A stretch of 50,359 nt of DNA. It comes from Phycisphaerales bacterium. Lineage in GTDB: Bacteria; Planctomycetota; Phycisphaerae; Phycisphaerales; UBA5793. The stretch spans positions 1 to 50,359 of the forward strand of contig JADZAS010000032.1 of the NCBI GenBank assembly GCA_020852515.1, given 5' to 3'. This document shows, piece after piece, positions 1,512 through 50,359 of this stretch (positions are counted from its first letter, which is position 1; each line of letters begins with the position of its first letter). The notes below the pieces were generated by a model. That model saw nothing but the letters and a program-made list of their open reading frames with translations. It had not been told where the DNA came from and did no database searches. The position numbers and the translations under genes were made by a program.

Positions 1512-1563
1512 TCTGCGGAGGACTTCGCCTGCGGGTCGCACTTCGCCCCGCACAAGTGAACAC

Positions 1564-1600
1564 ACCGGCCGGGCCTCGCGCCCGGCCGGTTTGCGTTTTT
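1564..1600 (+). terminator. Rho-independent terminator of the RRM gene
   Basis: A perfect 11-bp stem (1564-1574 with 1580-1590) closes a 5-base loop and is followed by TTGCGTTTTT. It sits 52 bases after the RRM stop codon and before the convergent TSCPD gene. Confidence 0.85.
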
Positions 1601-1627
1601 GCAGACGAGATGACCGATGCCCCGCCG

Positions 1628-1993: not shown

Positions 1994-2090
1994 GACGGCG
2001 TTCAAGAGCAACCCCTTCCGTGGGCGGCGATGAGCGCTGCGCCTCATGCACAGCGGCTGGGAGAGAGCACCAAGCGTGATTCTTGTTCGG

Positions 2091-3239
2091 TCAGATGCCG
2101 CGGTCTTGTAGAAAAGTGCCTGCGTCTGATTGCGGGGCGCCGCCGCCGGCGCCTGGTTCTTCCTGTTCTTCCTCCTCTCCGGCCGGGGCGGCGGCCGCGT
2201 CGGCAGCGGGCCACGCGGCACGGACGCCGGCGATGCTCAGCGACAGCGACAGGAACGCCGCTGCGGCCAGAGCCAGGCCCATTGCAGCCAGCGAGCGGCG
2301 CGAGCACCACCTCGACAGCCCGACCAGCGACAGGCCGAGCACGAGTGCGGCAGGGACGCTCAAAGCGTCGAGCCGAGTCAGATCTCGCACTTCGTAGGAG
2401 GCCTCGACGCCCTGGCGAAAGCCGGCGATGATCGTGAGCCACGGGATGAGCCGCACGCAGAGCACCCCGGTCGCCAGCAGGACGATGAGAATGACGGTTG
2501 ACACGCCGCAGCGGATCGCGGCGGCAGGGCTGACGCGCCACCAGAGGGCGGCGAGCACGGCCATCTGCGTCACGGCGCCCGCAGAGGCGGGTAGCCAGAG
2601 GAAACGAAGCTCAGCATTGAGGGGCGCCCGGGAGTCGAGTGAACTGAGATAGGGAGCCGCGGCCGCGGCCAGCAGAACCAGCGGGCCGACCGCCAGAGCC
2701 GCGCTGGCCGGCGCCCCGACCGGCCGGGCGAGTGGGCCGGTCCAGTCCACCAGGAAGACGGGATCGCCGTCGGCATTTGCGGCCCGTGCGGCGGGGCTGG
2801 GCTCGCTGCTGACCGTCCAGAGCCAGAGGATCGCGGCCGTAAGCAGCACGTGGCCGGACCAGTCGCTCAGGCGGCCGGTGATGGAAGCGAGGGTCAATGC
2901 GGCGGCCACGGCCAGCAGGGCCGCCAGATGATGCCAGGGAACGAAGGAAACGGGCCGGTTGCGCGGATCGACCAAGGCGAGGCCGACGATGAGACCAGCG
3001 GCCGAGACCGGCAGCGTGACCATGAGGCTGAGCGTCGCGGGCTGGCTCAGGTGCGATGAGCCGGCCAGAAATGGCAGGGCGACGACGGGCAGGGCGAGGA
3101 TCAGGGGGATCCAGATGTCGAGCCATGCGTGCAGGGCGCGCGAGTGCGGCGATTCGTTCCTTAAGGCCGGGATGACGCCCAGCAGCAGGGCGCATAACAT
3201 GGCAAGTACTGCGGCGGCAGCGCTGAGATGAACGATCAT
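2091..3239 (-). CDS. Polytopic membrane protein, unknown function
   Basis: A 382-residue protein made mostly of hydrophobic helices, about ten by eye, starting with a signal-anchor-like segment (AAAAVLAMLCALLLGVIPAL). After the last helix comes a short acidic tail with a run of Glu (GEEEEQEEP). I recognise no family and no catalytic motif. The start is placed at the ATG at 3239 because the first membrane segment begins right after it; the reading frame continues upstream but without membrane-protein character. There is no clear ribosome binding site. The gene diverges from the LEPR-type exported protein gene. Confidence 0.7.
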   Translation of the reverse strand: MIVHLSAAAAVLAMLCALLLGVIPALRNESPHSRALHAWLDIWIPLILALPVVALPFLAGSSHLSQPATLSLMVTLPVSAAGLIVGLALVDPRNRPVSFVPWHHLAALLAVAAALTLASITGRLSDWSGHVLLTAAILWLWTVSSEPSPAARAANADGDPVFLVDWTGPLARPVGAPASAALAVGPLVLLAAAAAPYLSSLDSRAPLNAELRFLWLPASAGAVTQMAVLAALWWRVSPAAAIRCGVSTVILIVLLATGVLCVRLIPWLTIIAGFRQGVEASYEVRDLTRLDALSVPAALVLGLSLVGLSRWCSRRSLAAMGLALAAAAFLSLSLSIAGVRAAWPAADAAAAPAGEEEEQEEPGAGGGAPQSDAGTFLQDRGI

Positions 3240-3464
3240 CGGAAGCACGCCGCAAGTGTAGACGCAGCGCCGCACGATCGGGCTGCGCGTGAGGATCGGC
3301 GGGCCGCGCCTGCCGACGGGATCGACCGACGAACGTCGCGCGATGCGACACAGCGAGGTAGCGGCGGGGTTTTCCGCCTTTCCCACCACCGTCGGGCGAA
3401 TGAACTGCGAGCCGGCGCATCTGATGTGCAGCGGGCTCGAGCACCGAGTTACGGGAGAAGCATC

Positions 3465-36664: not shown

Positions 36665-36955
36665 GAGTCCCTGAAGACCGGGCATGCCTGTCGTCCCGAT
36701 GAACGTCGTGTTGCCGGTGCTCAGGTCGATCGTGTAGAGGTTGTCGCTGACGAACCATCCCCCGTCCTCGATGGTGAAGAGGCGGCCGTCGTTGGCGAAC
36801 GCCATGCCACGGCAATCTCCGAGATTGGAGTTGACGACGGGGGTGCCGGCCCCGCTGTTGGGGTCGATGCTGATGATCACGGTCCCGGAACTGGTGTAGA
36901 TGGTTCCGTCAGCCGCACGCGCCGACGTGTTCAAATGGCCGAACCCCGACTTCTC
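36665..36955 (-). pseudogene. Truncated remnant of an exported beta-propeller-like gene
   Basis: A stretch of about 95 codons reads GHLNTSARAADGTIYTSS, then SIDPNSGAGTPVVNSN, GMAFANDGRLFTIED and LYTIDLSTGNTTFIGTTGM, the strand pattern of exported propeller-type proteins. It has no start codon of its own: on its 5' side it runs straight into the last codons of the serine recombinase gene on the same strand, in a different frame. On its 3' side the protein-like pattern stops at GLQGLA and no stop codon follows in frame. I read it as a host gene cut at its 5' side by integration of the element and also degraded or deleted at its 3' side. Confidence 0.65.
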
Positions 36956-36965
36956 TCCGATTCAC
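36931..36965. other. Probable left attachment junction of the integrated element
   Basis: The recombinase gene ends at 36931 and the host-gene remnant begins within these bases, so the crossover site must lie here. Large serine recombinases usually have their attachment site directly next to their own gene, which fits. The core sequence cannot be defined without the right end. Confidence 0.45.
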
Positions 36966-38433
36966 GCCCTTCGATCAAGAGGTCGAAGGGCTTTCTCTTT
37001 GTGAGATAGAGGTTTGCGTCGCTCAGCGTCCGGTTCAAACTCACGGAATCCAGAATCCGTCGCCGGACCGCCGAGTTTGAACGCCGCCAGTGCTCGTCGG
37101 CATTCTGGCACCAGTCGAAAACCGCAAACGCCAGCTCGATGGCCCCGGCGTCGATCCGTCCAACGCGTTCGCGCGCCTCAGTGACCCCGGCCAACTCGGA
37201 CCGCAGCTCCTCAGCCTTGTCCCTGTACTGACCCTCCGCAATCGTGCCTGCGAGGTAGGCATTTAGCAGCCGGTCCTGCATCCCGGCCAGTTCTGAGTGC
37301 CGTTTGGAGAGTGCCGCCGACTGCCGGCGTTGCTGCGACGAGATGTCCTCGAAGGCGGCGGCCAGCGTCTTGCGAAACAGGTCGCGCACTTCCGCCGGCT
37401 CGATTCGCAGCGTCGCCAGTTCGTCGGTGATGGCGCTCTCGACGTCTTCAGCACGCCAGCGGACTCGCGGGTGACCCGGATCCGGGTGATTGTTGCCGCA
37501 CCGGTAGTAGAGATGCTCGTTGACCGAGCCGTTCTTCAGCTTGCGCTTGATGCGCTCGCCCGTGATGGCGAACCCGCAATGGGCGCACCGCATCAACCCG
37601 CCGGAGAGCGGAATCTGCGGTTTTCCGGTGCGACGGTTCTTCCCGTGGAGGATGTCCTGACACGCTTCGAAGAGTTCCCGCGTGATGAGACGCTGGTATC
37701 GGCCCGTGAACGTCTGGCCGTTGCGGAGCAGTTCACCGATGTAAAACCGGTTGTTCAGGACGTACGAGAGTGCCGTGCGGGTGAACCGCGGCTGGCTCGG
37801 GCGATAGATGTGCCCCTCGCGCTCGAGGGCGTCGGCGAGGGATTGGAAGGTCATGTCGCCGTATGCGTAGAGCTCGAAGATTCGGATGATCGTCCTCGAC
37901 TTCTCCGGGTGCGGCTGCACCGGCTCCTCGTGATTGTCCTGAACATTGATGTAGCCGTACGGCGCCCCGCCGGTGGGCCAGCCCTGGCGCACCTTCTCGT
38001 CCATGCCCTTGAGCACTTCGGAGCGCAGGTTGTCGCTGTAGTACTGCGCCACCGCCGCCATCACGTTGAACGACAAGGCGCCGGCTGCGCCGGGGCCGAA
38101 CTGGTTCTCGACGAAGGCGAGCTGCACGCCGCAAGAGTCTTCGAGTTCCTGAAGCCGTACGGCGTCGCGCATGTTGCGGCAGACGCGGTCGAGTTTGTGG
38201 CTCAGAATGGCGGTGATCTTTTCGCGCCTGGCGTTGGCGCGAACCCACTTGACCATGTCATTGAAGGCGAGGCGTTCCGCCCCGCGCCGCGCCGATTCGG
38301 CCACATCGAACTCCCGAGCGACGTGCCAACCCTCTCGTTTGGCTTTCTCGCGCGTCGCCCGAAGCTGCGCGTCGATGGAATACCCCTCGCGCTGCTCGCG
38401 CGAGGAGACGCGTGCCCAGACGACCACGTTCAT
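36931..38433 (-). CDS. Large serine recombinase (phage-type integrase)
   Basis: The 500-residue protein is a serine recombinase: resolvase-type catalytic domain at 1-150 with the nucleophile Ser10 in WARVSSREQREGYS and the conserved Arg cluster (HKLDRVCRN), a recombinase domain at about 160-270 (GGAPYGYINV), a zinc ribbon with CAHC near 297-300 and a second Cys pair spread around YYRC, then a coiled coil (about 345-440). It would catalyse integration and excision between attachment sites. The start has CAGGAG upstream and overlaps the stop of the small gene before it (ATGA). Confidence 0.95.
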   Translation of the reverse strand: MNVVVWARVSSREQREGYSIDAQLRATREKAKREGWHVAREFDVAESARRGAERLAFNDMVKWVRANARREKITAILSHKLDRVCRNMRDAVRLQELEDSCGVQLAFVENQFGPGAAGALSFNVMAAVAQYYSDNLRSEVLKGMDEKVRQGWPTGGAPYGYINVQDNHEEPVQPHPEKSRTIIRIFELYAYGDMTFQSLADALEREGHIYRPSQPRFTRTALSYVLNNRFYIGELLRNGQTFTGRYQRLITRELFEACQDILHGKNRRTGKPQIPLSGGLMRCAHCGFAITGERIKRKLKNGSVNEHLYYRCGNNHPDPGHPRVRWRAEDVESAITDELATLRIEPAEVRDLFRKTLAAAFEDISSQQRRQSAALSKRHSELAGMQDRLLNAYLAGTIAEGQYRDKAEELRSELAGVTEARERVGRIDAGAIELAFAVFDWCQNADEHWRRSNSAVRRRILDSVSLNRTLSDANLYLTKRKPFDLLIEGRESERSRGSAI

Positions 38434-38699
38434 GGCCGGCGCTCCTGCCCTGTGGCGTCCAGAACCGATTCCGCGAATCGCTTGATGTTCATGATGATCT
38501 CAATGGCCTCCTCTTGCGAAATGGTCCGCCGGTACCTGCTGGACCAGACCCGCCGATGTTCCGCGATCAGTTCGTCGGTGATCCAGGCGAGCGCCACGGG
38601 CCGACTGTCGGCCGTGGGCTCGCACTGATCAGTTACTGCGCGGGGTCGAGGAAGTCCAGTCGATGCTGGCGGATTCATGACGGTGCTTTGGGCATACAT
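38430..38699 (-). CDS. Small protein between sigma-like gene and recombinase
   Basis: An 89-residue protein of unknown function. The N-terminal half looks unstructured; the C-terminal half is one helical unit (ITDELIAEHRRVWSSRYRRTISQEEAIEIIMNIKRFAESVL). I have the impression that similar helices occur next to serine recombinases, but cannot verify this. The ATG at 38699, just 4 bases after the previous stop with GGGGGA upstream, is preferred; an ATG at 38678 is an alternative. Its stop overlaps the recombinase start, so it may be a recombinase partner. Confidence 0.7.
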   Translation of the reverse strand: MYAQSTVMNPPASTGLPRPRAVTDQCEPTADSRPVALAWITDELIAEHRRVWSSRYRRTISQEEAIEIIMNIKRFAESVLDATGQERRP

Positions 38700-38703
38700 G
38701 CAA

Positions 38704-39210
38704 TCAGTCCCCCAGCCAACCATCAAGGCCCATGTTCTCGAAGCGCTGGCGAATGTCGGCGATGAGGCGCTCCACCGTGTGCCAGCCGCACTCGAGCTCC
38801 CTGGCGATGCTGGCGATCGATTCGCCCTCGGAGAGCATGGCGCAGACTCGCTGTTCTCGCGGCGACAGCTGCGCCACGGCGCTTCGCACATCGATTTCCA
38901 TTTCATGCTTGGACTCGTACTCCGTGGGCTGGCCCGCGCATCGGCGCACCTGCTCGAGGCGCTCGCGATCGCGGGCACAGCGGCGCGCTGCCGATCGCAC
39001 CTGGCGATTCACGATGGTCGCGAGCACCGCGTCGGGCTGCACCGCTTCGCGGGACCGCACCGGGTCCGATTTGAACTTGGCCGTCTCGATGGCGATCTGC
39101 TGCGCGATGTCGTCGCGGCTGTGATTGTCCAGTCCCATGCGCCGCGCTCGCGCATCAATCAGCCGCATCTGCCACTCGTCCATGAGACCGCGATACTCGT
39201 TGCTGCTCAT
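38704..39210 (-). CDS. Sigma-70-like regulator of the element
   Basis: The 168-residue protein has a helical N-terminus (about 1-85), compatible with a reduced region 2, and a clear region 4 helix-turn-helix at about 111-158 (LSPREQRVCAMLSEGESIASIARELECGWHTVERL). It could be an ECF-like sigma factor or a transcription factor built from region 4. CAGGAG lies upstream of the ATG. It is the first gene of the minus-strand operon that includes the recombinase, and it faces away from the replication genes, so it is well placed to control one or both operons. Confidence 0.8.
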   Translation of the reverse strand: MSSNEYRGLMDEWQMRLIDARARRMGLDNHSRDDIAQQIAIETAKFKSDPVRSREAVQPDAVLATIVNRQVRSAARRCARDRERLEQVRRCAGQPTEYESKHEMEIDVRSAVAQLSPREQRVCAMLSEGESIASIARELECGWHTVERLIADIRQRFENMGLDGWLGD

Positions 39211-39486
39211 TGCCTGCTCCTGAAGTGAAGGGTGTGGGTGACTTTCGGGAGCGATGGAAGACGCGCATGCGGGGACACGTCTCGCGCGTCTGAGATGAGT
39301 TTGAGCGATCAGATGTGCGGCGGGTGTACCGACACATGAGCCGCACGTGAGGCGTCAGGTGAGGCACACGTGATGCTCATGTGTCCGACATATGAGTTTC
39401 GATGACCCCGGCGGATCGGCGGCGAATGATGCACGCCACCAGCGACAACCCCTGTGCCGCGAGCGCTACTGCGGCGGGGAGTCGCC
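39211..39486. promoter_or_regulatory. Divergent control region of the element
   Basis: This 276-base gap separates the sigma/recombinase operon from the replication operon and contains an inverted repeat with arms GACACATGAG (39331-39340) and CTCATGTGTC (39376-39385). Between them are two CACGTGA-like words and a repeated GTGAGGC. The arrangement is typical of an operator region where a repressor or activator controls both directions. No protein-coding signal is seen. Confidence 0.55.
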
Positions 39487-40395
39487 ATGCCGAATCAATC
39501 CATCCTCAATGCGCTGATCCACGAGCCCGCGGAGGCGTACCACGCCCGCAGCGCCGAGCACGTGACGGCGCACCGGCTCGCTGACTTTCGACGCTGCCCG
39601 CTGCTCTTTCGCAAGAAGGAGCAGGGCCTTGTCCCGGATCGGGACTCAGCGGCATATCTCGTCGGACGCGCCGCGCATGTGCTGATACTCGAGGGGCGAC
39701 AGCGGTACGAAGCCCAGTTCGCCGTCGGCGGGCCGGTGAATCCGCGTACGGGTCAGCCCTTTGGCTCCAACACGAAGGCGTTTGCCGACTGGGCGGAACG
39801 CATCGGCAAGCCGGTACTCACGGATGATCAGGCGGCGCTGATCGAGCAGATGGCGGCGAGCGTGCGGGAGCACCTGTTCGCACGAGAGCTTCTCGCCGAT
39901 GGCGCTGCCGAGGGTGTGCTGCGCGGCGAATACGCCGAACACCGATGCCAATCCCGGCTCGACTGGGTCAACCCCAAGCCGGGGCGAGGTATTGTCGATC
40001 TGAAAACCACCGATTCACTCGACTCCTTCGAATCGGATATCGCGGCCTTCGGCTACGTCGAGCAGATGGCGTTCTATCGCGCCATGTTCGAGGTAATCGT
40101 CAAGGCCACACTCCCGGTTCATCTGCTTGCCGTCGAAAAGCGTGAGCCGTACCGATGCGGCGTCTGGCAAATCGCGCCGCAGGCGCTCGACGAAGCGCAA
40201 GCCGAGAACGAAACCGCGATGCGGGAACTGACGCGCTGCTGCGAGACAGGGATCTGGCCCACGCGGTTCGAATCAATCCGTCTCTACGAAGCCATCAGCC
40301 CATCCTCGAGCGGGCGAGCCTCGCGCACCTCATCGACTCCCCCGCCCGGCGCAGGCTCGCCCGCTTCTTCTCAATACAAGACCAGCCAGCTCTGA
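39487..40395 (+). CDS. Phage-type PD-(D/E)XK exonuclease (DUF3799/RecE-like)
   Basis: The 302-residue protein matches the phage exonucleases that resect DNA ends for single-strand annealing. The opening LADFRRCPLLFRKKEQG and LVGRAAHVLILEG (about 58-70) are typical of DUF3799-type proteins. The PD-(D/E)XK core is visible: SRLDWV with Asp159, GIVDLKTTDS with Asp171 and Lys173, and YVEQMAFYRAMF with Gln193. The C-terminal 30 residues are Ser/Pro-rich. GGGGA precedes the ATG. It is the first gene of the replication operon, with the Sak4-like ATPase immediately after it. Confidence 0.85.
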   Translation: MPNQSILNALIHEPAEAYHARSAEHVTAHRLADFRRCPLLFRKKEQGLVPDRDSAAYLVGRAAHVLILEGRQRYEAQFAVGGPVNPRTGQPFGSNTKAFADWAERIGKPVLTDDQAALIEQMAASVREHLFARELLADGAAEGVLRGEYAEHRCQSRLDWVNPKPGRGIVDLKTTDSLDSFESDIAAFGYVEQMAFYRAMFEVIVKATLPVHLLAVEKREPYRCGVWQIAPQALDEAQAENETAMRELTRCCETGIWPTRFESIRLYEAISPSSSGRASRTSSTPPPGAGSPASSQYKTSQL

Positions 40396-40405
40396 AAGGA
40401 CCGCA

Positions 40406-42235
40406 ATGACCGCGCTCAGCACGATCCAACGGGGACGAGCCCAACTCCCGCGCCGCGTGCTCCTATACGGGGTGCAAGGTGTGGGCAAAGCCCAGCCGCT
40501 GGATGCGAAGGTCTTGACGCCCAACGGCTATGTCAGGATGGGCGACATTGAGATCGGCAATGTCGTGATCGGCTCGGATGGCAGGAGTCATCGTGTTCTT
40601 GGGGTCTATCCCCAAGGGGAGAAGGATGTCTTTCGCGTCACCTTCCGCGACGGCTCCACGACGCTCTGCTGCGATGACCACCTCTGGTTCACCCAGACCT
40701 TCTGCGAGCGGAGGATGGGTCTGGCGGGGGCGGTTCGCCCCCTGCGGGACATCCGGCGGACCCTCCGCTATGGCACGCATTTCAATCACGCTGTCCCGTG
40801 CGTGCGGCCCGTGGAGTTCGAGGTTCTCGGCGATCGGCTGCCCATCGAGCCCTGGCTCCTTGGAATGTACCTCGGAGACGGATCTTCGTCTGGAAGCAGT
40901 GTCCTCATCACGAACCAGGAATCGGATGTTCAGGCGAAGATCAAGGACACGCTCGATCGTGCGGATGCAGGCGTGTATACGAGCACCGCCGCGACCGCCA
41001 TGCGCATCAGGAGCAAGCGCAACGGCCGGCCATCGATCCTCAAGTCCGCCCTGAGAGAGTTGGGTCTCGACGGGCTCGAGTCGCAGGACAAGTTCATTCC
41101 GAGCATCTACCTGCACGCGAGGGTTGAAGACCGGCTCGCGCTCCTGCAGGGCCTTCTCGACAGCGATGGGTTCGTGACCAAGCCTGGCGCGGTGGAATTC
41201 TGCACAGTCAGCTCGCACATGGCGGAGGATGTCTGCTTCCTCATCCGCAGCCTGGGCGGCTCGGCGAAAAAGATCATCAAGCCCAATCCCACCTTCACGT
41301 ATCAGGGCCAGAAGCGAACCGGTCAGACCGCCTATCGCATCTTCGCCTCGTTCCGAGCCGACCTGGTCCCGGTCTCCTCCGAAAAGCACCTGGCGAAGTG
41401 GTCGGAGCCCCGCTGGGCGATCGGCCACACGATCCGCAGCGTGGAGCCGGCGGGACGAATGCCCTGCCAGTGCATCCGCATCGATGCCCCCGATTCGCTC
41501 TACGTCACGGATGATTTCATCGTCACGCACAACACCACCTTCGGTGCGATGGCGGAAAAGCCCATCTTCATCCAGACCGAGGAGGGCGCGAACGATCTCG
41601 AAGTCGATCGCTTCCCGCTGGCGACCAAGTACGCCGACGTCATGAATGCGCTGTCGGCGCTGTACTCCGAGGATCATGACTACCAGACGGTCGTCATCGA
41701 TTCACTCGATTGGCTCGAGCGCCTCATCTGGGCCGAAGTCTGCGCCAAACGCGGCGTCGAGTCGATCGAAGATGTCGGGTACGGCAAGGGCTACATCTTT
41801 GCGCTGACTCAGTGGCGTGAGATCGTTTCCGGCCTGGATGCGCTTCGAAACGAGCGTGGGATGCAGATCATCCTGATCGCGCACTCCCAGATCGAGAAGT
41901 TCGCCAATCCCGAGACCGACCCCTACGACCGCTACGTGCCTCGTCTCCAGAAGCAGGCGTCGGCGCTGCTCTCCGAGTGGTGCGACGAGCTGCTATTCGC
42001 GTGTCACAAGGTCTTCACCAAGACCACCGACCAGGGATTCAACCGCAAGCGCGTGCAGGGTGTCGGCACCGGCGAGCGGATCATCCGCACCACCGAGCGC
42101 CCGGCGCACGCGGCGAAGAACCGTTTGAACCTGCCCGACGAGTTCCCGCTCGACTACCGCATCTATGCGGCATTCGTGCGAGGGGAAACCCCGCAAATCG
42201 ACGGACAAGAGCCTACTGAACAAGGAGCCGGATAA
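40406..42235 (+). CDS. Sak4-like phage recombination ATPase split by an intein
   Basis: The precursor is 609 residues: 28 residues of host protein, a 348-residue intein (29-376), and 233 more host residues. After splicing the host protein of 261 residues is a RecA-like ATPase of the AAA_24/Sak4 type, which anneals or pairs single strands in phage recombination. The spliced Walker A is GVQGVGK joined to TT. Further host motifs are PIFIQTEEG, VVIDSLDWLERL (Walker B) and IILIAHSQIEKF (sensor). AAGGA lies upstream of the ATG. The end overlaps the DUF669 gene (TAATG), so it belongs to the same operon as its exonuclease and probable ssDNA-binding partner. Confidence 0.88.
   Translation: MTALSTIQRGRAQLPRRVLLYGVQGVGKAQPLDAKVLTPNGYVRMGDIEIGNVVIGSDGRSHRVLGVYPQGEKDVFRVTFRDGSTTLCCDDHLWFTQTFCERRMGLAGAVRPLRDIRRTLRYGTHFNHAVPCVRPVEFEVLGDRLPIEPWLLGMYLGDGSSSGSSVLITNQESDVQAKIKDTLDRADAGVYTSTAATAMRIRSKRNGRPSILKSALRELGLDGLESQDKFIPSIYLHARVEDRLALLQGLLDSDGFVTKPGAVEFCTVSSHMAEDVCFLIRSLGGSAKKIIKPNPTFTYQGQKRTGQTAYRIFASFRADLVPVSSEKHLAKWSEPRWAIGHTIRSVEPAGRMPCQCIRIDAPDSLYVTDDFIVTHNTTFGAMAEKPIFIQTEEGANDLEVDRFPLATKYADVMNALSALYSEDHDYQTVVIDSLDWLERLIWAEVCAKRGVESIEDVGYGKGYIFALTQWREIVSGLDALRNERGMQIILIAHSQIEKFANPETDPYDRYVPRLQKQASALLSEWCDELLFACHKVFTKTTDQGFNRKRVQGVGTGERIIRTTERPAHAAKNRLNLPDEFPLDYRIYAAFVRGETPQIDGQEPTEQGAG
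40490..41533 (+). other. Class 3-type intein with LAGLIDADG endonuclease, in Walker A of the Sak4-like ATPase
   Basis: Residues 29-376 of the precursor begin AQPLDAKVLTPNGYV and end VTHN, followed by Thr. The first residue is Ala, not Cys or Ser. The class 3 triplet is present: Trp94 in block B (DDHLW), Cys356 in block F (CIRIDAPD) and Thr374 in block G (VTHN). A homing endonuclease is inserted, with LLGMYLGDG (Asp158 acidic) and LQGLLDSDG as its two motifs, both intact. Removal restores an unbroken GVQGVGKTT P-loop, so the host ATPase can only work after splicing. Confidence 0.9.
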
Positions 42236-42687
42236 TGGCGCAGCTGAATGGGTTCGACGCGCACGAAGTCGAGCCGAACCAAACGTTCGATGTTCTTCCT
42301 GCCGGCAAGTATCTGGCGATCATCACCGCCAGCGAAATGAAAGCGACCAAGGCCGGCACGGGCGAGTTCCTTGAGCTGCAACTTGAAGTGGTCGAAGGGC
42401 CGTACAAGGGGCGCAAGCTCTGGGATCGACTTACGTTGAAACACGAAAACGCGCTCACGGTACAGATCGCCAAGGGCACCCTTTCCTCAATCTGTCGCGC
42501 CGTGGGGGTGATGCGACCCCGCGATTCGGCCGAGTTGCACGGCATCCCATTGCTCGCCAAGGTGAAGGTCAAGCAGCGGTCCGATACCGGTGAATCTGTC
42601 AACGAGATTGCCGGTTACGAGAGGAAAGCCCCGGCCGCTCCCTCGCCGGTGCCGTCGACGAGTAGCACGCCGCCGTGGAAGCGTTGA
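42235..42687 (+). CDS. DUF669-family phage protein
   Basis: The 150-residue protein fits DUF669, a family of small proteins of phage recombination operons thought to bind single-stranded DNA. Visible segments are LPAGKYLAIITASEMKATKAGTGEFLELQLEV and GRKLWDRLTLKHEN; a Pro/Ser-rich flexible tail ending in PPWKR resembles SSB C-terminal tails in layout. AAGGAG is well placed and the start overlaps the previous stop (TAATG). Context with exonuclease and Sak4-like ATPase supports the role. Confidence 0.88.
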   Translation: MAQLNGFDAHEVEPNQTFDVLPAGKYLAIITASEMKATKAGTGEFLELQLEVVEGPYKGRKLWDRLTLKHENALTVQIAKGTLSSICRAVGVMRPRDSAELHGIPLLAKVKVKQRSDTGESVNEIAGYERKAPAAPSPVPSTSSTPPWKR

Positions 42688-43061
42688 ACGAACAGGTCTT
42701 CCTGCTGCCCTTCCCGCCGAGCGTCAATCACTACTGGCGCATGGTGAGCACGAGGCATGGATGTCGCATGCTCATCAGCCGCGAGGGTCGGGCCTACCGC
42801 GAAACGGTGGTCTCGGCTCTCGCGTCGGCGGGCGCCCGGGCGCAGGACGGTCGTCTTGACGTCTCGATCATCGCGGCTCCACCTGATCGTCGCCGAAGGG
42901 ATCTCGACAATTTACTCAAATGCACCCTTGATTCGCTCGCGCATGGTGGCGCGTACCACGACGATTCGCAGATCGATCACCTCGAGATCTGGCGCGGCGG
43001 CGTCGTGCCCGGGGGCCAGATCGCGATCCGCATTCGCATCATCTCAGGAGCTCATCCATGA
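42675..43061 (+). CDS. rusA: RusA-family Holliday junction resolvase
   Basis: A 128-residue endonuclease of the RusA family, which cleaves four-way junctions formed in phage recombination. FLLPFPPSVNHYW opens the protein; the metal site is RDLDNLLKCTLDSL followed by HDDSQIDHLE, with the three or four acidic residues in place. The start at GTG 42675 overlaps the previous gene by 13 bases but has no strong ribosome binding site; a nearby TTG is possible. Its stop overlaps the next start (ATGA). Confidence 0.9.
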   Translation: MEALNEQVFLLPFPPSVNHYWRMVSTRHGCRMLISREGRAYRETVVSALASAGARAQDGRLDVSIIAAPPDRRRRDLDNLLKCTLDSLAHGGAYHDDSQIDHLEIWRGGVVPGGQIAIRIRIISGAHP

Positions 43062-43933
43062 TCGATGAACGACTCATCTTCAAGAACGTGCCGACATGGT
43101 TCGGCTTCGCCGCCGCAGGCGGCACGAGCAATGTCGCCGAGGACCGCTGCATCAGGCGCGAATACCTGCTCAACCCGGGCCTGTTCTTCGAGCGGGTGGT
43201 CTACCCCCAGCTCGACTACCTGGACGCCAACGATCAGCCGCTGGCGATCATCATTGCTGACGCCTACGGGTACGAGAACACCGAGCAGGCCAAGGACTTC
43301 GATGCGCCGGTCGAGGCAAGAGACAACCCCAACCTCGACCGCTGGTGTGACGAGTTGGCAGGGCACCTCGACGCGCTCGCGCTGGTGACGGATCACCTGG
43401 GCTTCTACGTCGGCACGCCGGCGAACGACCCGGACATGCAACTGGCGCGGCAGATCGATCTCGGCGAGTATGCGGCGCGTGCGTACGCATCGCTCGAGCC
43501 GTTCATGTACGTCGCCGATTCGATCACCTTCGACCAGGTCTGCCAGCTGACCGATACCGACCCGGTCTATCACGACATGCTGCGCATTCGCAGGCGCCTG
43601 GGCATCCCGTGCTTCGCCGAGAGTCGGCCGGACTGTGAGACGACGCAGTGGATGCGAGATCGCTGGGGGTTCATGTTTCAGGAGCGGCACCTGCTGCTGC
43701 GCGGCACCCAGTGGGTGCCTCTGGCGGAGATCCGCGAAGCTGGATGCCCGATCGTTCGGATGACCACGGGTGTGCCCGATGATGCATACGCCGATCCGCA
43801 AACCGGGCAGAAGTGGGAACCCTGGGTCTGGCAGCAGCACGCCATCCGCAATGCCCGGGCCGACGGCGACTCGGTCACAACGAACCTGCGCAACCTGGCG
43901 GCTCACGATCTGCGACTGCGGGACTTCGAGTGA
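43058..43933 (+). CDS. Unknown protein in the element operon
   Basis: A 291-residue soluble protein without a recognised family. It has an acidic, aromatic-rich composition (for example NPGLFFERVVYPQLDYLD and YADPQTGQKWEPWVWQQHA) and no membrane segment or signal. No DNA-binding or catalytic motif is seen. AGGAG is close upstream and the start overlaps the RusA stop, so it is a coupled member of the replication operon. Its large size and conserved-looking architecture make it a real gene. Confidence 0.7.
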   Translation: MIDERLIFKNVPTWFGFAAAGGTSNVAEDRCIRREYLLNPGLFFERVVYPQLDYLDANDQPLAIIIADAYGYENTEQAKDFDAPVEARDNPNLDRWCDELAGHLDALALVTDHLGFYVGTPANDPDMQLARQIDLGEYAARAYASLEPFMYVADSITFDQVCQLTDTDPVYHDMLRIRRRLGIPCFAESRPDCETTQWMRDRWGFMFQERHLLLRGTQWVPLAEIREAGCPIVRMTTGVPDDAYADPQTGQKWEPWVWQQHAIRNARADGDSVTTNLRNLAAHDLRLRDFE

Positions 43934-43970
43934 TCTCACGAGTCATGGCACTCACCCGGAGCATCCCTCA

Positions 43971-44630
43971 GTGGTCCACGTGAACGCACAACCCCGGCGC
44001 CTCTACATCTCCGGCCCAATGACGGGAATGCCCGAGCACAACTTCCCTGCGTTCTTCGCGGCCGAGGAGCGCTTGAGGCAAGCGGGCTTCGAGCCTCTCA
44101 ATCCGGCCCGCAACTTCGACGGCGAGACCGATCGTGAACGCGCCGAGTACATGCGCGCCGACATGGAACTCCTGCTGCGCTGCGACGGCCTGTTGATGCT
44201 ACCGGGCTGGGAGGAATCGCGGGGGGCCAAGCTCGAGTACATGATCGCCTGGGAACTGGGCCTGCCGATTCTCGACATCGCGACACTGGCCGAGATCCGC
44301 CAGCCGCCCACGCCGTGGGTGCAGCTGCACACACTGGGCATCGCGGAACCTGCGGCGGCTCCCGAGTCCGTCCTCGCCGAGGCGGCGCGGGTCACCAGCG
44401 GTGAGCGGCAGAAGGACTACGGCCATCCCCGTGACGACTTCTCGCGGACCGCGGTGATGTGGAATGGCCTGCTGGCGTCGAAACTTCGCAGCCCGATCAC
44501 CGCGATGGACGTGCCGCTGTGCATGATCGCCGTCAAGCTCGCGCGGGAAGCCCACCGTCACAAGCGCGACAACCTCGTCGACATTGCCGGCTACGCGCGC
44601 ACGGGCGCCATGGTCGCAGGAGATGAGTGA
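43971..44630 (+). CDS. DUF4406-DUF6378 fusion protein
   Basis: The 219-residue protein joins two phage domains. Residues about 8-105 match DUF4406, a nucleoside deoxyribosyltransferase-like fold: RLYISGPMTGMPEHNFPAF, RAEYMRADMELLLRCDGLLMLPGWEESRGAKLEY. Residues about 130-215 match DUF6378: ESVLAEAARVTSGERQKDYGHPRDDF and AREAHRHKRDNLVDIAGYA. Both are usually separate genes in phage replication regions and are thought to deal with nucleotides. The start is taken as GTG at 43971, 9 bases after GGAG; GTG 43980 is an alternative. It overlaps the phosphoesterase start. Confidence 0.82.
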   Translation: MVHVNAQPRRLYISGPMTGMPEHNFPAFFAAEERLRQAGFEPLNPARNFDGETDRERAEYMRADMELLLRCDGLLMLPGWEESRGAKLEYMIAWELGLPILDIATLAEIRQPPTPWVQLHTLGIAEPAAAPESVLAEAARVTSGERQKDYGHPRDDFSRTAVMWNGLLASKLRSPITAMDVPLCMIAVKLAREAHRHKRDNLVDIAGYARTGAMVAGDE

Positions 44631-45409
44631 TGGCCAGGGCAGCAGGGCGCAAGTCGAAGGTCATGATGGCTTTCGGCGATGTGCACATCCCGCACCACAA
44701 TCCCCGCGCCGTCGAGGTCTTCTGCCGCGCCGCCGAGCGCATCAAGCCTGACTTGATTGTCTGCCTCGGTGATCTGCTCGACTGCGGCCAGTTCTCGGTG
44801 CATCCGCCCACCTACGGCGTGCCCGAGAGCGACTACAACGAGGATCTCAAGCGCGCCAACGCGCTGCTCGATCGCGTGCAGCGCTGCTGCCGTCGCCTCG
44901 TCATGGTCGAGGGCAATCACGAGTACCGCCTCGACCGCTGGGCGGCGGCGACCGCTGAGGGCCGAGGCGCGTATTCGCTGCTGGCGCCGCGGATTCAGCT
45001 CTCCAAAGGGCGGACGAAGTTCAGCTACGTGCCCTACGGCTCAGCCGACGGGCGCTATCCGCATTACCCGATCAACTCGCGCATCATCGCCGTGCACGGC
45101 TGGTCGCACGCCAAGGAGGCGACCCGGGCCCACCTGCAGATCAGCCAGGGGCGGACTGTCATCCATGGGCATACTCACCGCGCTGACGCCCACATGACCC
45201 AAAACATCTGGTCGACGGGCCGGATCATCGAGGCTCGCAGCGCCGGGTGCCTGTGCAAGCCCGTTCCACTCTACGGCACGGGCCGGCCCGTCGAGTGGGT
45301 GAACGCCTTCATCATCGGCTACCTCGGCCGGCGCAGCGACACCCTCTACACCGTGCCGATCATGCACGACCGGTGCATCCTGCCCGATGGCGCCCAGGTG
45401 GCGGCGTGA
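44630..45409 (+). CDS. Metallophosphoesterase
   Basis: The 259-residue protein has the calcineurin-like phosphoesterase motifs in order: GDVH (about 16-19), GDLLD (47-51), GNHEYR (about 94-99), HGWSH and GHTHRAD. It belongs to the DNA-repair/phage group of such enzymes, which may act on DNA ends or nucleotides; the substrate is not known. The ATG at 44630 overlaps the previous stop (TGATG) with AGGAG 8 bases upstream. Its stop overlaps the helicase start (GTGA). Confidence 0.88.
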   Translation: MARAAGRKSKVMMAFGDVHIPHHNPRAVEVFCRAAERIKPDLIVCLGDLLDCGQFSVHPPTYGVPESDYNEDLKRANALLDRVQRCCRRLVMVEGNHEYRLDRWAAATAEGRGAYSLLAPRIQLSKGRTKFSYVPYGSADGRYPHYPINSRIIAVHGWSHAKEATRAHLQISQGRTVIHGHTHRADAHMTQNIWSTGRIIEARSAGCLCKPVPLYGTGRPVEWVNAFIIGYLGRRSDTLYTVPIMHDRCILPDGAQVAA

Positions 45410-47079
45410 TCCTGCGCGAGTACCAGCGCGAAGCGGTCGAAGCCGTCTACCGGCACCTGCGCGAGCACGACACGAATCCGTGCGTGGTGTGTCCGACCGG
45501 CGCGGGCAAGAGTCTGATCATCGCCCAAGTCGCCAGAGACGTGGTGGAACTCTGGAACGGACGGATTCTCATTCTCGCGCATGTCAAGGAATTGCTCGAT
45601 CAGGCCGTGGACAAGCTGGTTGCGGTGGCGCCGGGACTGTGGAACTGCATCGGCGTGTACTCCGCGGGGCTCGGCAGCCGCGACACGGATCACCCGATCA
45701 TCGTCGGCGGCATTCAGAGTGTGTTTCGCCGGGCGCGCGAACTTGGTCGCTTCGATCTGATCCTCATCGACGAAGCCCATCTCATCGCGCCCGACGGCGA
45801 AGGGATGTATCGGCAGTTCCTCGATGACGCCAAAGCCGTCAATCCGAACGTGCGCGTCATCGGACTGACGGCGACCCCGTTCCGCATGAAATCCGGTTCG
45901 ATCTGTGCGCCTGAAAACATCCTCAACGAGATCTGCTACGAGATCGGCGTGCGCGAGCTCATCGTCCAGGGCTTCCTGTGCCCGCTTCGCACCAAGGCGG
46001 GAATCGTCCGTGCCGACACGAGCAACCTGCACGTCCGCGGCGGCGAGTTCGTCGCAGGCGAGGTCGAAGATCTCATGGACGGCGATGATCTCGTGCATGC
46101 GGCGTGCGCCGAGATCGTGGAGTACACCGCTAAGCGCCGCAGTGTGCTGATCTTCACCTCGGGCGTGCGCCACGGCCGGCACATCGTCGATGTGCTCCGC
46201 GATCACCACAGAGCCGAGTGCGGGTGGGTGGACGGCGAAACTCCCGCGCAGCAGCGGGATGCCACTCTCGACCGCTTCAAGGCCGGCGAACTGAAGTACC
46301 TCGCCAACTGCAACATCTTGACGACCGGTTTCGATGCGCCGCGGATCGACTGCGTCGTGCTTCTGAGGCCGACGCTCTCGCCCGGACTCTACTACCAGGC
46401 CATTGGTCGCGGCTTCCGTCTGCATCCCGACAAGTCCGACTGCCTCGTCCTCGACTATGGCGGGAACGTGCTCCGGCACGGTCCCGTTGATGACCTGCGC
46501 ATCAAGGAGCCGGGCGGCGGGGACGGTCCAGCGCCCGCGAAGGAGTGTCCGCAATGCCACGCCCTGATTCATGCCGCCTACTCCTCCTGTCCCGATTGCG
46601 GTTATGCATTCCCGCCTCCTGAAAAAGCCTCGCACGAGTCCAGCGCCAGCAGCGATGGCATTCTCTCCGATCAGGTCACGCGGACCGAGCACGAGGTCAG
46701 CGAAGTCTCCTATCACATCCATTTCAAGCGCAACGACCCGAGCGCCGCCCCGACCATGCGCGTTGATTACCGGTGCGGGTTCGCCACGTCATTCTCCGAA
46801 TGGCTCTGCTTTGAACATACCGGCTACGCCCGCCAGAAGGCTGAGCAGTGGTGGCGGCGACGGTCCAACGAGCCCGTGCCTGATCACGTGGATGAGGCCG
46901 TCGATCTGGCGCGCAGCGGCGCGCTGACGCCCACGCTGGCGATCACCGTTGAGCGAAAGCCCGGCGAGAAGTACGACCGGATCGTGAGCCACGTGCTGGG
47001 CGCGCGGCCTCCACGCATCGACACCGACGAAGGCGCTGCCAAGTACGCGGAAATCTCTGACGACCAGGTGCCATTCTGA
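45406..47079 (+). CDS. SF2 DEAD/DEAH-box helicase with zinc ribbon
   Basis: The 557-residue helicase starts at GTG with VILREYQREAV (Q-motif region). Walker A is CPTGAGKS at 29-36, Walker B IDEAHL at about 121-126, motif III GLTATPFR, motif VI YYQAIGRGFR. A four-Cys zinc ribbon follows (ECPQCHALIHAAYSSCPDC, about 385). The C-terminal 160 residues carry a domain with YRCGFATSFSEWLCFEHTGYARQKAEQWWRRR, commonly seen after phage helicases of this type. It probably unwinds DNA at replication or recombination intermediates. Start overlaps the phosphoesterase stop. Confidence 0.9.
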   Translation: MILREYQREAVEAVYRHLREHDTNPCVVCPTGAGKSLIIAQVARDVVELWNGRILILAHVKELLDQAVDKLVAVAPGLWNCIGVYSAGLGSRDTDHPIIVGGIQSVFRRARELGRFDLILIDEAHLIAPDGEGMYRQFLDDAKAVNPNVRVIGLTATPFRMKSGSICAPENILNEICYEIGVRELIVQGFLCPLRTKAGIVRADTSNLHVRGGEFVAGEVEDLMDGDDLVHAACAEIVEYTAKRRSVLIFTSGVRHGRHIVDVLRDHHRAECGWVDGETPAQQRDATLDRFKAGELKYLANCNILTTGFDAPRIDCVVLLRPTLSPGLYYQAIGRGFRLHPDKSDCLVLDYGGNVLRHGPVDDLRIKEPGGGDGPAPAKECPQCHALIHAAYSSCPDCGYAFPPPEKASHESSASSDGILSDQVTRTEHEVSEVSYHIHFKRNDPSAAPTMRVDYRCGFATSFSEWLCFEHTGYARQKAEQWWRRRSNEPVPDHVDEAVDLARSGALTPTLAITVERKPGEKYDRIVSHVLGARPPRIDTDEGAAKYAEISDDQVPF

Positions 47080-47145
47080 ACAAATGCTAGTGATGCGCCC
47101 CATCCAATTCGATCATGACCGGTCGCCCTGGAGGCCGCCCGACCC

Positions 47146-50100
47146 GTGAGTCTCATGCGGTCGAACATGGGTGATTCTCTCCACGCGCACGCGCAGGCGT
47201 GTGTTGCCGCGGGGCTATGCGCGCTGCCGGCGGTGCGCAATGGCCAGGAAAAGCGACCGGCGCTGAGCGAGTGGAAGCCCTATCAATCCCGACTGCCGTC
47301 GCGAGAGGAACTCGCGCGCTGGTTCGATGGGTCGGCAACCGCGCTGTGCCTCGTGTGCGGAGCGGTTTCCGGCAACCTGGAGATGATCGACTTCGACCTG
47401 GGTGGCGAGGCCTTCGAGCCCTGGCGCCGCGCCGTCGAGTCCATGGCGCCCGGTCTCGTCGATCGTCTTGTGATCGAATCGACGCCGTCGGGCGGTCGGC
47501 ACGTCATCTACCGCTGCGATCAGCCCATCTCCGGCAATACGAAGCTCGCGCAGCGCCGCATCGAGGTCGGCGCCGACGAGCCGGTTGTCGTTGGATGCAA
47601 GGAGCACAAGCCGCGCCGGGACTCTGGCGGCGCCTGGGTGATCACGATCACTATGATCGAGACCCGCGGCGAGGGTGGGCTCTTTCTGTGCGCGCCCTCC
47701 GACGGCTACGGAATCCTCCACGGCGAACTCGCCGCGCCGCCGGTCATCACCTCGGACGAGCGCGACATCCTGCTCGGTTGTGCCTGGGCGCTCGATGAGA
47801 CTCGTCCGCTCGACATTGATACGCCAAGCGCCGTCTCCGACGACGCGGTCACCTCACGCCCGGGCGATGACTTCAATCGCCGTGGTGATCCCCGCGCCGT
47901 TCTGCTCTCCCACGGCTGGACGCTTGTGCAGAGAGGCGAGAACGAGCACTGGTGTCGGCCAGGCAAGTCCGCCGGCACGAGCGCCACCCTCAAGGACGGG
48001 GTGTTCTACGTCTTTTCGACGAACGCCGCGCCCTTCGAAGCGCAGCAGGGCTACTCACCCTTCGCGGTCTACGCGCTGCTCGAACACGGCGGAGATTTCA
48101 CGGCCGCGGCGTCGGCGCTGGCGTCGCAGGGCTACGGCAGCGCGCCGACCCAAACGCGCGGCGTCGATCTCGCCGCGTTCGTGGCCGACGTCCCACCCGC
48201 GCCTGACAACCTGCTCGCCCCGGCCCCTCTCTCTGTCGAGCAGCTCGTCAGCGGCCACCCGCTGCTCCGCCCACCGGTGGTTCACGGCCTGCTGCGCCAG
48301 GGCGAGACGATGAACGTGATCGCCAGTCCAAAAGTCGGCAAGGCGCTAGCAATCGACACGCCGATCCTGACACAAGACGGTTGGGTTGCAATGGGAGACT
48401 TGCAGCCGGGAATGCACGTACATGCCGGCGACGGCTCGTTGACGCGCATCGTTGCCGTCTCGGGCATCATGCACGACCGACCCTGCTATCGCGTGCGCAC
48501 CAAATCGGGCGCCTCGCTGATTGCTGATGCCGAACACCTCTGGTCAGTGTGTTCACGAAACTCACTGGCCGTCGTCCCCACGCACCGGTTGAGTCAGGGA
48601 ATGAACGGCCGGCGCTGGAAACTCCCGATCGCAGCAGCGCTGCAGCGACCTCGAACCGAACTGCCGATTGATCCTTGGATGCTCGGCTATTGGCTCGGCA
48701 ACGGCACGACTACCAGCGGCGAGGTCACCGTGGCTGAGCCGGATGTGCGCTATGTGCAGGATCACCTTACCCGTGCAGGATTCGCTTGGGGCCGTGTTCG
48801 CCAGAAACGTGGTGCCGCGACATTCACCGTGCTCGGGCTGCAGCCACGCCTGCGCGCCATAGGTGTTCTGAGCAACAAGCACGTCCCACAGCCCTACCTG
48901 CTGGCTGCGGAATGGCAGCGCCGCGTGTTGCTGGCTGGACTCTTGGACTCTGACGGTCACGCCGGGACGCGATCCAACGGCTGCGGATTAGTTGAATTCT
49001 GCTCAACGAGCGCCGCCCTGGCTGACGCGGTTGCATTCCTCGCGCGGTCTTTGGGACACAAGCCGTACCTGCAGGTTGGTCGCGCACGCCTGAACGGGCG
49101 AGACTACGGCGCCAAGTACCGCATCAGCTTTGCCGCCACCGCATCTACTTGCCCATTCAGTTCGCCTCGAAAGTCGGCGCGACTGCCACACCGCCGGTTG
49201 GCGCGACGATCGGTGATCGATGCCGTCGCTTCGGTGGAGCGAGTGGCGTCAGTACCGGTTCAGTGCATCCAGGTCGAGCACCCGAGTGGTACATTCCTCG
49301 CTGGTAGGGATCTGACCGTCACGCACAATTCGTGGCTCACCCTCGATCTCGCCATCGCCGTCGCTACCGGCCGCCCGTGGCTGGGTCGCTACGCCACCGA
49401 GCGCGGCGATGTGCTCATCATCGATAACGAGCTGCATCGCGAAACCAGCGCTCACCGCATTCCCAAGGTCGCGCATGCTCGCGGCATTCCCATGCGCGAG
49501 TTCAACCGGCGGATCTTCGTGGACAATATCCGCGGCCGCCTGCGCGACATCTTCACCCTTGCGCCCTACTTCGCTGCCATCGAGCCGGGCCGATACAAGG
49601 TCATCGTCCTCGACGCCTTCTATCGCTTTATGCCGGCAGGCGGCGATGAGAACGACAACGGCACGATGGCCAACATCTACAACTGCATCGACGCCTTCGC
49701 CGATCGCCTCGGCTGCTCATTCGTGCTCATCCACCACTCGTCCAAGGGCAATCAGACCGGCAAGTCGGTCACCGACGTCGGGGCCGGGGCGGGCGCGCAG
49801 AGCCGGGCCACCGACACCCACGTCGTCCTGCGGCCGCACGAGGAGGACCACGTCGTCGTGCTCGAAGCCGCGGTGCGCTCTTGGCCGCCCGTCGAGCCGC
49901 TGTGCCTACGCTGGGAATTCCCGGTGTGGACCGCCGATGAGACACTCGATTCGAGCCAGCTGCTCTCGCAGGGCGGTCGCAGCCGCAGCGAACCCGGGAA
50001 GAAGGACGAATGGACGCCCGAGTCGTTCGTCGAGGCGTTCGTCGATGATGAGCCTGCCACACGTTCGGCCATCATCGGCCGCGCCGTGCGCGATGGCCTG

Positions 50101-50241
50101 TCCAAGTGGGCCGCCGACAACCTGCTGCGCATGGCTGATGCCGACGGCCTCCTCGCCCGCAACGGCGATGGCAAACGCAACGACCCCTTCACTTACCAGC
50201 GCCTCGCCAAGGCGCCGAGCACCCCGGAGGATCGCCCATGA
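47146..50241 (+). CDS. Prim-Pol primase-polymerase / RepA-like helicase split by an intein
   Basis: The 1031-residue precursor contains 702 host residues and a 329-residue intein (400-728). The N-terminal 210 residues are a bifunctional primase-polymerase (AEP) domain with the catalytic acidic pair in MIDFDLGG and a conserved His in SGGRHVIYR. A linker leads to a RecA-like AAA_25/RepA helicase domain; spliced Walker A is SPKVGK joined to SWLTLDL, followed by DVLIIDNELHRE and VIVLDAFYRF (Walker B). The C-terminus has a winged-helix-like end. This is likely the element's replication initiator. GGAGG stands 11 bases before the GTG start; ATG codons at 47155 and 47167 are alternatives. Confidence 0.88.
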   Translation: MSLMRSNMGDSLHAHAQACVAAGLCALPAVRNGQEKRPALSEWKPYQSRLPSREELARWFDGSATALCLVCGAVSGNLEMIDFDLGGEAFEPWRRAVESMAPGLVDRLVIESTPSGGRHVIYRCDQPISGNTKLAQRRIEVGADEPVVVGCKEHKPRRDSGGAWVITITMIETRGEGGLFLCAPSDGYGILHGELAAPPVITSDERDILLGCAWALDETRPLDIDTPSAVSDDAVTSRPGDDFNRRGDPRAVLLSHGWTLVQRGENEHWCRPGKSAGTSATLKDGVFYVFSTNAAPFEAQQGYSPFAVYALLEHGGDFTAAASALASQGYGSAPTQTRGVDLAAFVADVPPAPDNLLAPAPLSVEQLVSGHPLLRPPVVHGLLRQGETMNVIASPKVGKALAIDTPILTQDGWVAMGDLQPGMHVHAGDGSLTRIVAVSGIMHDRPCYRVRTKSGASLIADAEHLWSVCSRNSLAVVPTHRLSQGMNGRRWKLPIAAALQRPRTELPIDPWMLGYWLGNGTTTSGEVTVAEPDVRYVQDHLTRAGFAWGRVRQKRGAATFTVLGLQPRLRAIGVLSNKHVPQPYLLAAEWQRRVLLAGLLDSDGHAGTRSNGCGLVEFCSTSAALADAVAFLARSLGHKPYLQVGRARLNGRDYGAKYRISFAATASTCPFSSPRKSARLPHRRLARRSVIDAVASVERVASVPVQCIQVEHPSGTFLAGRDLTVTHNSWLTLDLAIAVATGRPWLGRYATERGDVLIIDNELHRETSAHRIPKVAHARGIPMREFNRRIFVDNIRGRLRDIFTLAPYFAAIEPGRYKVIVLDAFYRFMPAGGDENDNGTMANIYNCIDAFADRLGCSFVLIHHSSKGNQTGKSVTDVGAGAGAQSRATDTHVVLRPHEEDHVVVLEAAVRSWPPVEPLCLRWEFPVWTADETLDSSQLLSQGGRSRSEPGKKDEWTPESFVEAFVDDEPATRSAIIGRAVRDGLSKWAADNLLRMADADGLLARNGDGKRNDPFTYQRLAKAPSTPEDRP
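48343..49329 (+). other. Class 3-type intein in Walker A of the Prim-Pol/helicase
   Basis: Residues 400-728 begin ALAIDTPILTQDGWV and end VTHN followed by Ser. The insertion is directly after the Walker A Lys, exactly as in the Sak4-like ATPase. Trp466 (EHLW), Cys707 (VQCIQVEHP) and Thr726 (VTHN) form the class 3 triplet. The endonuclease has MLGYWLGNG in its first motif, where the acidic residue is Asn519, and LAGLLDSDG intact in the second, so DNA cleavage may be weakened or limited to one strand. The protein is clearly related over its full length to the other intein. Confidence 0.9.
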
Positions 50242-50257
50242 CGTTTCGTTTTGGGAA

Positions 50258-50279
50258 TCGTTTTGTGCGCACAAAACGA
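50258..50279. repeat. 22-bp perfect palindrome, copy 1
   Basis: Half-site TCGTTTTGTGC (50258-50268) followed immediately by its reverse complement. It lies 17 bases past the stop of the Prim-Pol gene. Additional TCGTTTTG half-sites stand just upstream (50245). Confidence 0.8.
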
Positions 50280-50304
50280 ATTGGAATTCATATCGTTTGG
50301 CGTT

Positions 50305-50326
50305 TCGTTTGGTGCGCACAAAACGA
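50305..50326. repeat. Near-palindrome, copy 2
   Basis: Same 22-bp site as copy 1 with one base changed (TCGTTTGGTGC in the left arm). Its start is 47 bases from the start of copy 1. Confidence 0.8.
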
Positions 50327-50348
50327 GTCGGGCACGCAGGGTTTCGTT

Positions 50349-50359
50349 TCGTTTTGTGC
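50349..50359. repeat. Palindrome copy 3, cut by the window edge
   Basis: The left half TCGTTTTGTGC is complete at the very end of the window, 44 bases after the start of copy 2. Whether the right half follows cannot be seen. Confidence 0.55.

Follow-up and report, generated by a model that had tools for sequence, protein, structure and literature searches.

The window analysed here is the entire contig JADZAS010000032.1 (C32; 50,359 nucleotides) of a Phycisphaerales bacterium (GCA_020852515.1). Its right part, from about 36.94 kb to the contig end, is an element that carries the genes for two P-loop ATPases, a Sak4-type recombinase and a replication protein with Prim-Pol and AAA_25 domains (hereafter prim-pol). 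Each of the two genes is interrupted by an intein, designated intein 1 in Sak4 and intein 2 in prim-pol. In the present work, the two inteins were compared with each other, with their relatives, and with intein-free alleles of both genes.

Structure of the two inteins

The junctions were read from the translations of the host frames. They are GVQGVGK^A...VTHN^TTF in the frame of 609 aa (intein 1) and ASPKVGK^A...VTHN^SWL in the frame of 1031 aa (intein 2), where ^ marks the junction. Both inteins are thus placed exactly between the Walker A Lys and the following Thr or Ser. The insertion points were also fixed at the DNA level by alignment with the empty sister elements; the insertions, of 1044 nt for intein 1 and 987 nt for intein 2, fall at these junctions. 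Both inteins have Ala at position 1, with no Cys, Ser, or Thr nucleophile there, and both end with His-Asn before a hydroxyl residue at +1 (THN^T and THN^S). The Trp-Cys-Thr triplet of class 3 inteins is W66/C328/T346 in intein 1 and W67/C308/T327 in intein 2. It is invariant across alignments of 30 and 29 relatives, respectively, and its residues line up with those of class 3 DnaB inteins. The insertion point and the class given in an initial annotation of this DNA are therefore both upheld.

Homology between the two inteins extends from end to end (BLASTP E 9e-35; 109/364 or 30% identity counting gaps). Of the aligned columns, 36% are identical, which is 21 standard deviations above shuffled sequences, in agreement with the annotated pair of related and yet diverged inteins. 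AlphaFold2 models (mean predicted local distance difference test score 94 for intein 1 and 95 for intein 2) are confident and combine a HINT fold with a LAGLIDADG fold. VIA-align matched them over the whole length to PI-SceI (Z 27.5 and 28.9 for inteins 1 and 2) and over the splicing domain to the class 3 DnaB intein 6bs8 (Z 20.1 and 22.8; root-mean-square deviation 1.4). At both of its ends, intein 2 also matches the solved Mycobacterium chimaera and M. smegmatis class 3 DnaB inteins in sequence (E down to 2e-21; profile 4.5e-42); the sequence matches of intein 1, to gp41-1 and the class 3 DnaB inteins, are weaker. Both are well supported as genuine class 3 P-loop inteins and, judging from sequence and models, are predicted to splice.

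Both spliced hosts, of 261 and 702 aa, are P-loop NTPases (AAA_24 and AAA_25, respectively). Their sequences gave no significant match to each other, in line with the initial annotation. PHROG matches of the inteins to "terminase" and "primase" were discarded; they stem from inteins embedded in those profiles, not from host homology. Neither Walker A motif is contiguous before splicing, from which it can reasonably be inferred that recombination and replication of the element depend on splicing.

Phylogeny of the inteins

Relatives were gathered with each intein and each extein as the query, and the junctions were read in the relatives. Trees were built from 129 rows and, for the careful tree and the approximately unbiased (AU) tests, from 44 rows. 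Intein 1 groups with seven other Sak4 inteins (100/98), and all eight Sak4 rows form a single clade in the 44-row tree, nested in a wider group of inteins from DnaB, RecA, and clamp-loader-like genes. Intein 2 groups with three other prim-pol inteins (L281, L285, and L286; 100/99). All four prim-pol rows likewise form a single clade in that tree, near the terminase intein of mycobacteriophage Easy2Say and an Actinomadura intein (96/88). The split that separates the intein 1 side from the intein 2 side has a support of 100/100. Forcing the two window inteins together was rejected (log-likelihood difference 242, p 7.6e-7), as was forcing the whole Sak4 and prim-pol intein clades together (p 2.6e-67).

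Terminase inteins had at first appeared closest to intein 2. This was a sampling artefact of the collection search, since the inteins of the prim-pol orthologues (L281-L286) surfaced only with the extein query. A plasmid search with intein 2 gave distant matches only, at most 37% identical.

Intein and host identities were compared within each clade. Intein 1 is 72% identical to the intein of L001 and 64% to that of L002, and the host C-exteins are 48% and 31% identical, respectively. Intein identity exceeds extein identity in both pairs; therefore, the intein 1 lineage has moved among divergent Sak4 genes. Three inteins from AAA_25 genes (L018, L020, and L036) fall on the intein 1 side, and their grouping with the prim-pol inteins was rejected (p 9e-5). 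By this placement, AAA_25 P-loops appear to have been invaded at least twice.

One further intein was seen in an AAA_24 gene. In the "AAA domain protein" of L301 (Dulem virus 38, 1399-3216), the GK^S site is likewise occupied, by an intein that begins with Arg. It lies far from the other Sak4 inteins and is perhaps an independent invasion of the Sak4 P-loop.

Empty alleles in sister elements

Two collinear elements, L318 on contig C4 of the same genome and L321 in a congener, are empty at both intein sites. They align with window positions 36943-50359 at about 79-92% DNA identity and are 92.6% identical to each other. Only three large gaps separate the window from them: 40490-41533 (intein 1), 43038-43947, and 48344-49330 (intein 2; the one-base offset is an alignment ambiguity). 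The window has TCG as the Ser+1 codon of prim-pol, both sisters have AGT, and 52-55 of 60 bases around the junction are otherwise identical. The codon change would fit an insertion with a very short co-converted tract, but it is only suggestive, because empty prim-pol alleles elsewhere use both types of Ser codon.

The second gap is a third insertion-like difference, a 910 bp segment that is absent from L318 and L321. It contains an open reading frame (43058-43933, 291 aa) with no Pfam or PHROG match. The segment had no match in phage records and no second copy in this genome.

More empty alleles lie elsewhere in the genome. Three further Sak4 genes, on contigs C4, C3, and C21 (86, 80, and 77% identical), and two further prim-pol genes, on C4 (96% over a 256-aa ATPase-domain query) and C30 (61%), are all uninterrupted. 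In the Sak4 host tree, the window copy falls within a set marked 99* of 20 rows, 19 of them empty; in the prim-pol host tree, it falls within a set marked 99* of three rows, two of them empty. Among de-duplicated loci that show both genes, 44 were empty at both sites, three had the prim-pol intein only, one had the Sak4 intein only, and none had both; the two inteins were found together in the window alone. On the simplest reading, both inteins were gained in this lineage after its split from the sisters, most likely in two separate and recent events.

The genome thus harbours several related elements that contain Sak4, prim-pol, or both (contigs C4, C3, C21, C30, and C32). Contigs C4 and C32 both stop right after prim-pol; repeats probably broke the assembly there.

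Insertion sites of the intein family

In a set of 125 non-redundant relatives (80% clustering, two class 1 outgroups included), the insertion is at GK^T/S in 107 and at another K^T/S in eight more. By Pfam, their C-exteins belong to terminase, AAA_25, SNF2, PhoH, AAA_24, DnaB, RecA, and other families. From this distribution, the intein family as a whole appears to have been P-loop-seeking over long times. The Sak4 and prim-pol sites of this element have 10 of 24 bases in common across the junction. Sites within a gene family share a mean of about 16-18 of 24 bases, and sites of different families about 10-12. Gene-specific recognition with rare transfer to other P-loops fits these values better than one enzyme for all P-loops.

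The family also uses sites other than the P-loop. In L038, L063, and L071, likely PhoH proteins (C-extein TxEEKxxP) are interrupted at a conserved GFLPG site by inteins of the intein 1 type. In L106 (about 2743-4137), a class 3 intein is apparently followed directly by a second, class 1-like one, whose Cys1 would serve as the +1 residue of the first (MIPTHN^CVVGNTEVDVV...); the two would adjoin at a single Walker A junction. The frame ends after 37 more residues, and the second intein may be split or truncated.

Endonuclease domains

Intein 1 has an acidic residue in both LAGLIDADG motifs (D130 and D226). In intein 2, the fold and the motif 2 residue D204 are kept, and motif 1 has Asn120 (LGNG) where PI-SceI and most relatives have Asp. 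LGNG is present in all four known prim-pol inteins, and Asn occupies this position in six of the 108 non-redundant relatives with a readable motif. In L286, motif 2 is DSDS instead of DSDG.

The ratio of nonsynonymous to synonymous substitution rates in the endonuclease region among L281, L285, and L286 is about 0.12-0.17, similar to that of the splicing region; the estimate is rough, with synonymous sites near saturation, and the distances from these three to intein 2 are also near saturation. The ratio suggests purifying selection on the endonuclease domain of the prim-pol intein clade, and the intein seems to have been mobile. Either Asn is tolerated in motif 1, or the domain has another role, or the intein moves by ordinary recombination.

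The element and its gene neighbourhood

The gene order of the element is serine recombinase, sigma-like regulator, PD-(D/E)XK exonuclease, Sak4, DUF669 single-strand DNA binding protein, RusA, DUF4406/DUF6378 protein, metallophosphoesterase, helicase, and prim-pol (Table 1). In a viral relative, L219, a terminase comes after the matching module. From this arrangement, the element is the module for replication and recombination of a tailed phage, which is probably temperate. A phage setting for the inteins is supported accordingly. A search of this genome for the PF03354 terminase found none, and the remainder of the phage was not located.

Table 1. Positions of the inteins, their key residues, the host genes, and neighbouring genes in the window.
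Feature	Position	Strand	Evidence or remark
Large serine recombinase, left end of element	36931..38433	-	Pfam Resolvase, Recombinase, Zn_ribbon_recom; collinearity with sister elements starts at about 36943
Sigma-70-like regulator	38704..39210	-	NCBIfam sigma70-ECF 1.8e-7, below curated cut-off; PHROG sigma factor
PD-(D/E)XK exonuclease adjoining Sak4	39454..40395	+	DUF3799; PHROG exonuclease VIII 5e-44
Sak4-type recombinase (AAA_24) precursor, 609 aa	40406..42235	+	Pfam AAA_24 3.5e-47; PHROG Sak4-like ssDNA annealing protein 2.8e-38
Intein 1, 348 aa, class 3, HINT + LAGLIDADG endonuclease	40490..41533	+	Junctions, empty sister alleles, Sak4-intein clade, model
Intein 1 block B Trp66	40685..40687	+	Invariant among aligned relatives
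Intein 1 LAGLIDADG motif 1 D130 (LGDG); motif 2 D226 (DSDG)	40877..40879; 41165-41167	+	Acidic residues
Intein 1 block F Cys328	41471..41473	+	Predicted initiating nucleophile; invariant among aligned relatives
Intein 1 block G Thr346-His347-Asn348	41525..41533	+	Invariant among aligned relatives
Thr+1 of Sak4 C-extein	41534..41536	+	Ser TCC in nearest empty alleles
DUF669 single-strand DNA binding protein	42235..42687	+	Pfam, PHROG
RusA-like Holliday junction resolvase	42675..43061	+	Pfam, PHROG
ResIII/Helicase_C DNA helicase	45247..47079	+	Pfam, PHROG
Prim-Pol + AAA_25 replication protein precursor, 1031 aa	47146..50241	+	Pfam Prim-Pol 2e-7, AAA_25 3.8e-26
Intein 2, 329 aa, class 3, HINT + LAGLIDADG domain	48343..49329	+	Junctions, empty sister alleles, prim-pol-intein clade, model
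Intein 2 block B Trp67	48541..48543	+	Invariant among aligned relatives
Intein 2 LAGLIDADG motif 1 Asn120 (LGNG); motif 2 D204	48700..48702; 48952-48954	+	Asp in PI-SceI and most relatives at motif 1; D204 kept
Intein 2 block F Cys308	49264..49266	+	Predicted initiating nucleophile; invariant among aligned relatives
Intein 2 block G Thr327-His328-Asn329	49321..49329	+	Invariant among aligned relatives
Ser+1 (TCG) of prim-pol C-extein	49330..49332	+	AGT in near-identical empty alleles

Discussion

It is highly probable that the element, of temperate-phage type, holds two independent class 3 endonuclease-bearing inteins, each from its own gene-specific homing lineage. The intein 1 lineage would spread horizontally among the Sak4 recombinase genes of different phages, and the intein 2 lineage occurs in the prim-pol/AAA_25 genes of the same phage group. 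With the Walker A motif split between Lys and Thr or Ser, the host ATPase would be inactive until the intein excises itself. Splicing is predicted to begin with attack of the block F Cys on the N-terminal junction, followed by transfer of the chain to Ser or Thr at +1 and cyclisation of the Asn. During co-infection with a relative that lacks the intein, the empty allele would be cleaved by the LAGLIDADG domain, and the intein would be introduced during repair together with only a very short stretch of flanking DNA.

The initial annotation had offered either P-loop-directed homing or a jump of one intein between the two ATPases of the element. It had named two outcomes that would count against its proposal, the placement of the inteins in distant phylogenetic groups and differing insertion points in relatives of the hosts. 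The former was found, as the 100/100 split and the log-likelihood difference of 242 attest. The latter was not, since orthologues that carry inteins have them at the identical point. P-loop targeting stands as a property of the intein family, and the jump does not. If one intein had arisen from the other by an ectopic jump between P-loops within the element and had then diverged, the shared class, insertion point, and whole-length homology would be explained. For each, however, far closer relatives occur in other phages, in the orthologue of its own host gene, the AU test rejects their union, and elements with one intein and without the other exist. Short of many independent convergent replacements, the trees refute such an origin, and it is extremely improbable. 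A single endonuclease that recognises any Walker A coding sequence, with both sites as targets of one promiscuous activity, would suit the 107 of 125 relatives at GK^T/S and the breadth of their hosts, from terminase and DnaB to SNF2 and AAA_24. We nevertheless consider it improbable, as the two DNA sites are far less alike than sites within either gene family, the intein clades follow the host genes, and three further Sak4 genes in the same genome remain empty.

Four points weigh against the favoured reading. Motif 1 of intein 2 is without the usual Asp. Intein 2 is 56-58% identical to its clade-mates and the exteins are 66-69% identical; with no intein excess, the one sign of its movement is that the sister alleles are empty. 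No direct donor came to light; the closest inteins known are about 71-72% (intein 1) and 58% (intein 2) identical. Finally, presence and absence by themselves cannot prove gain over precise loss, and an intein could be removed exactly when an empty allele recombines with an occupied one (homing cycle model, PMC8966425). The inteins could accordingly be ancient in this lineage and lost from the sister elements. However, the nearest alleles and most of the others sampled are empty, and the window has all three extra segments relative to both sisters, so that several coincident precise deletions would be needed. The AGT to TCG change beside a nearly identical junction also speaks, suggestively only, for gain. 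Ancient presence with loss is accordingly unlikely, and both inteins would be gains. Degeneration, with the prim-pol intein as a stuck, endonuclease-dead relic, is a more serious but still doubtful possibility. LGNG in all four prim-pol inteins and DSDS in L286 favour it; the purifying selection on the endonuclease region, no weaker than on the splicing region, the intact splicing residues, and the recent arrival suggested by near-identical empty sisters do not. Equally tentative is an asymmetric LAGLIDADG endonuclease in the prim-pol lineage, in which a conserved Asn replaces one catalytic Asp. Such an enzyme may still function and support mobility, for instance by nicking or by acting at a single site, and so drive homing. 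This would be directly testable in a genome with one occupied and several empty alleles of both targets.

An intein that hops between the ATPases of one element is replaced here by two gene-specific homing lineages that would have met in one element. A single genome that holds occupied and empty alleles of both genes is an unusually clean natural comparison. With such a matched pair, target specificity, co-conversion, and the burden of a P-loop intein can be put to the test.

Comparison with known systems

Class 3 inteins at the P-loop of phage ATPases are known from earlier publications. The K^T insertion in the P-loop was called "classic" in a survey of mycobacteriophages, in which class 3 transfer between terminase and DnaB was also suggested (Kelley et al., 2016; PMC5050341). 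The Sak4-type recombinase and Prim-Pol/AAA_25 are added here as new hosts; the literature searched, itself partial, held no intein report for either.

The TerL1-a type of mycobacteriophages (e.g., Easy2Say gp9; PMC5050341) is 43% identical to intein 2 and resembles it in the insertion between Walker A Lys and Thr, the phage ATPase host, and the LAGLIDADG domain. It differs in that the host is a packaging terminase and motif 1 is LGDG, not LGNG. M. smegmatis DnaBi1 (6bs8) and M. chimaera DnaB1 (6rix) share Ala1, the Trp-Cys-Thr triplet, and THN with the present inteins; by structure alignment, they are about 39-40% identical to the splicing domain of intein 2 (Z 22-23), whereas intein 1 is more distant (27-29%). 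In contrast to the inteins of this element, they are mini-inteins without endonuclease in a replicative helicase. The class 3-type inteins of jumbo-phage helicases (PhiPA3, phiLBG22, and relatives) give a 38% whole-length match to intein 1, and that of phiLBG22 is at AAGTGK^T; they differ in their helicase hosts and fall outside the Sak4 clade. PI-SceI, the yeast VMA intein, is a class 1 intein. It has the overall two-domain fold common to both inteins (Z 27-29), but it is not in a Walker A site of this kind.

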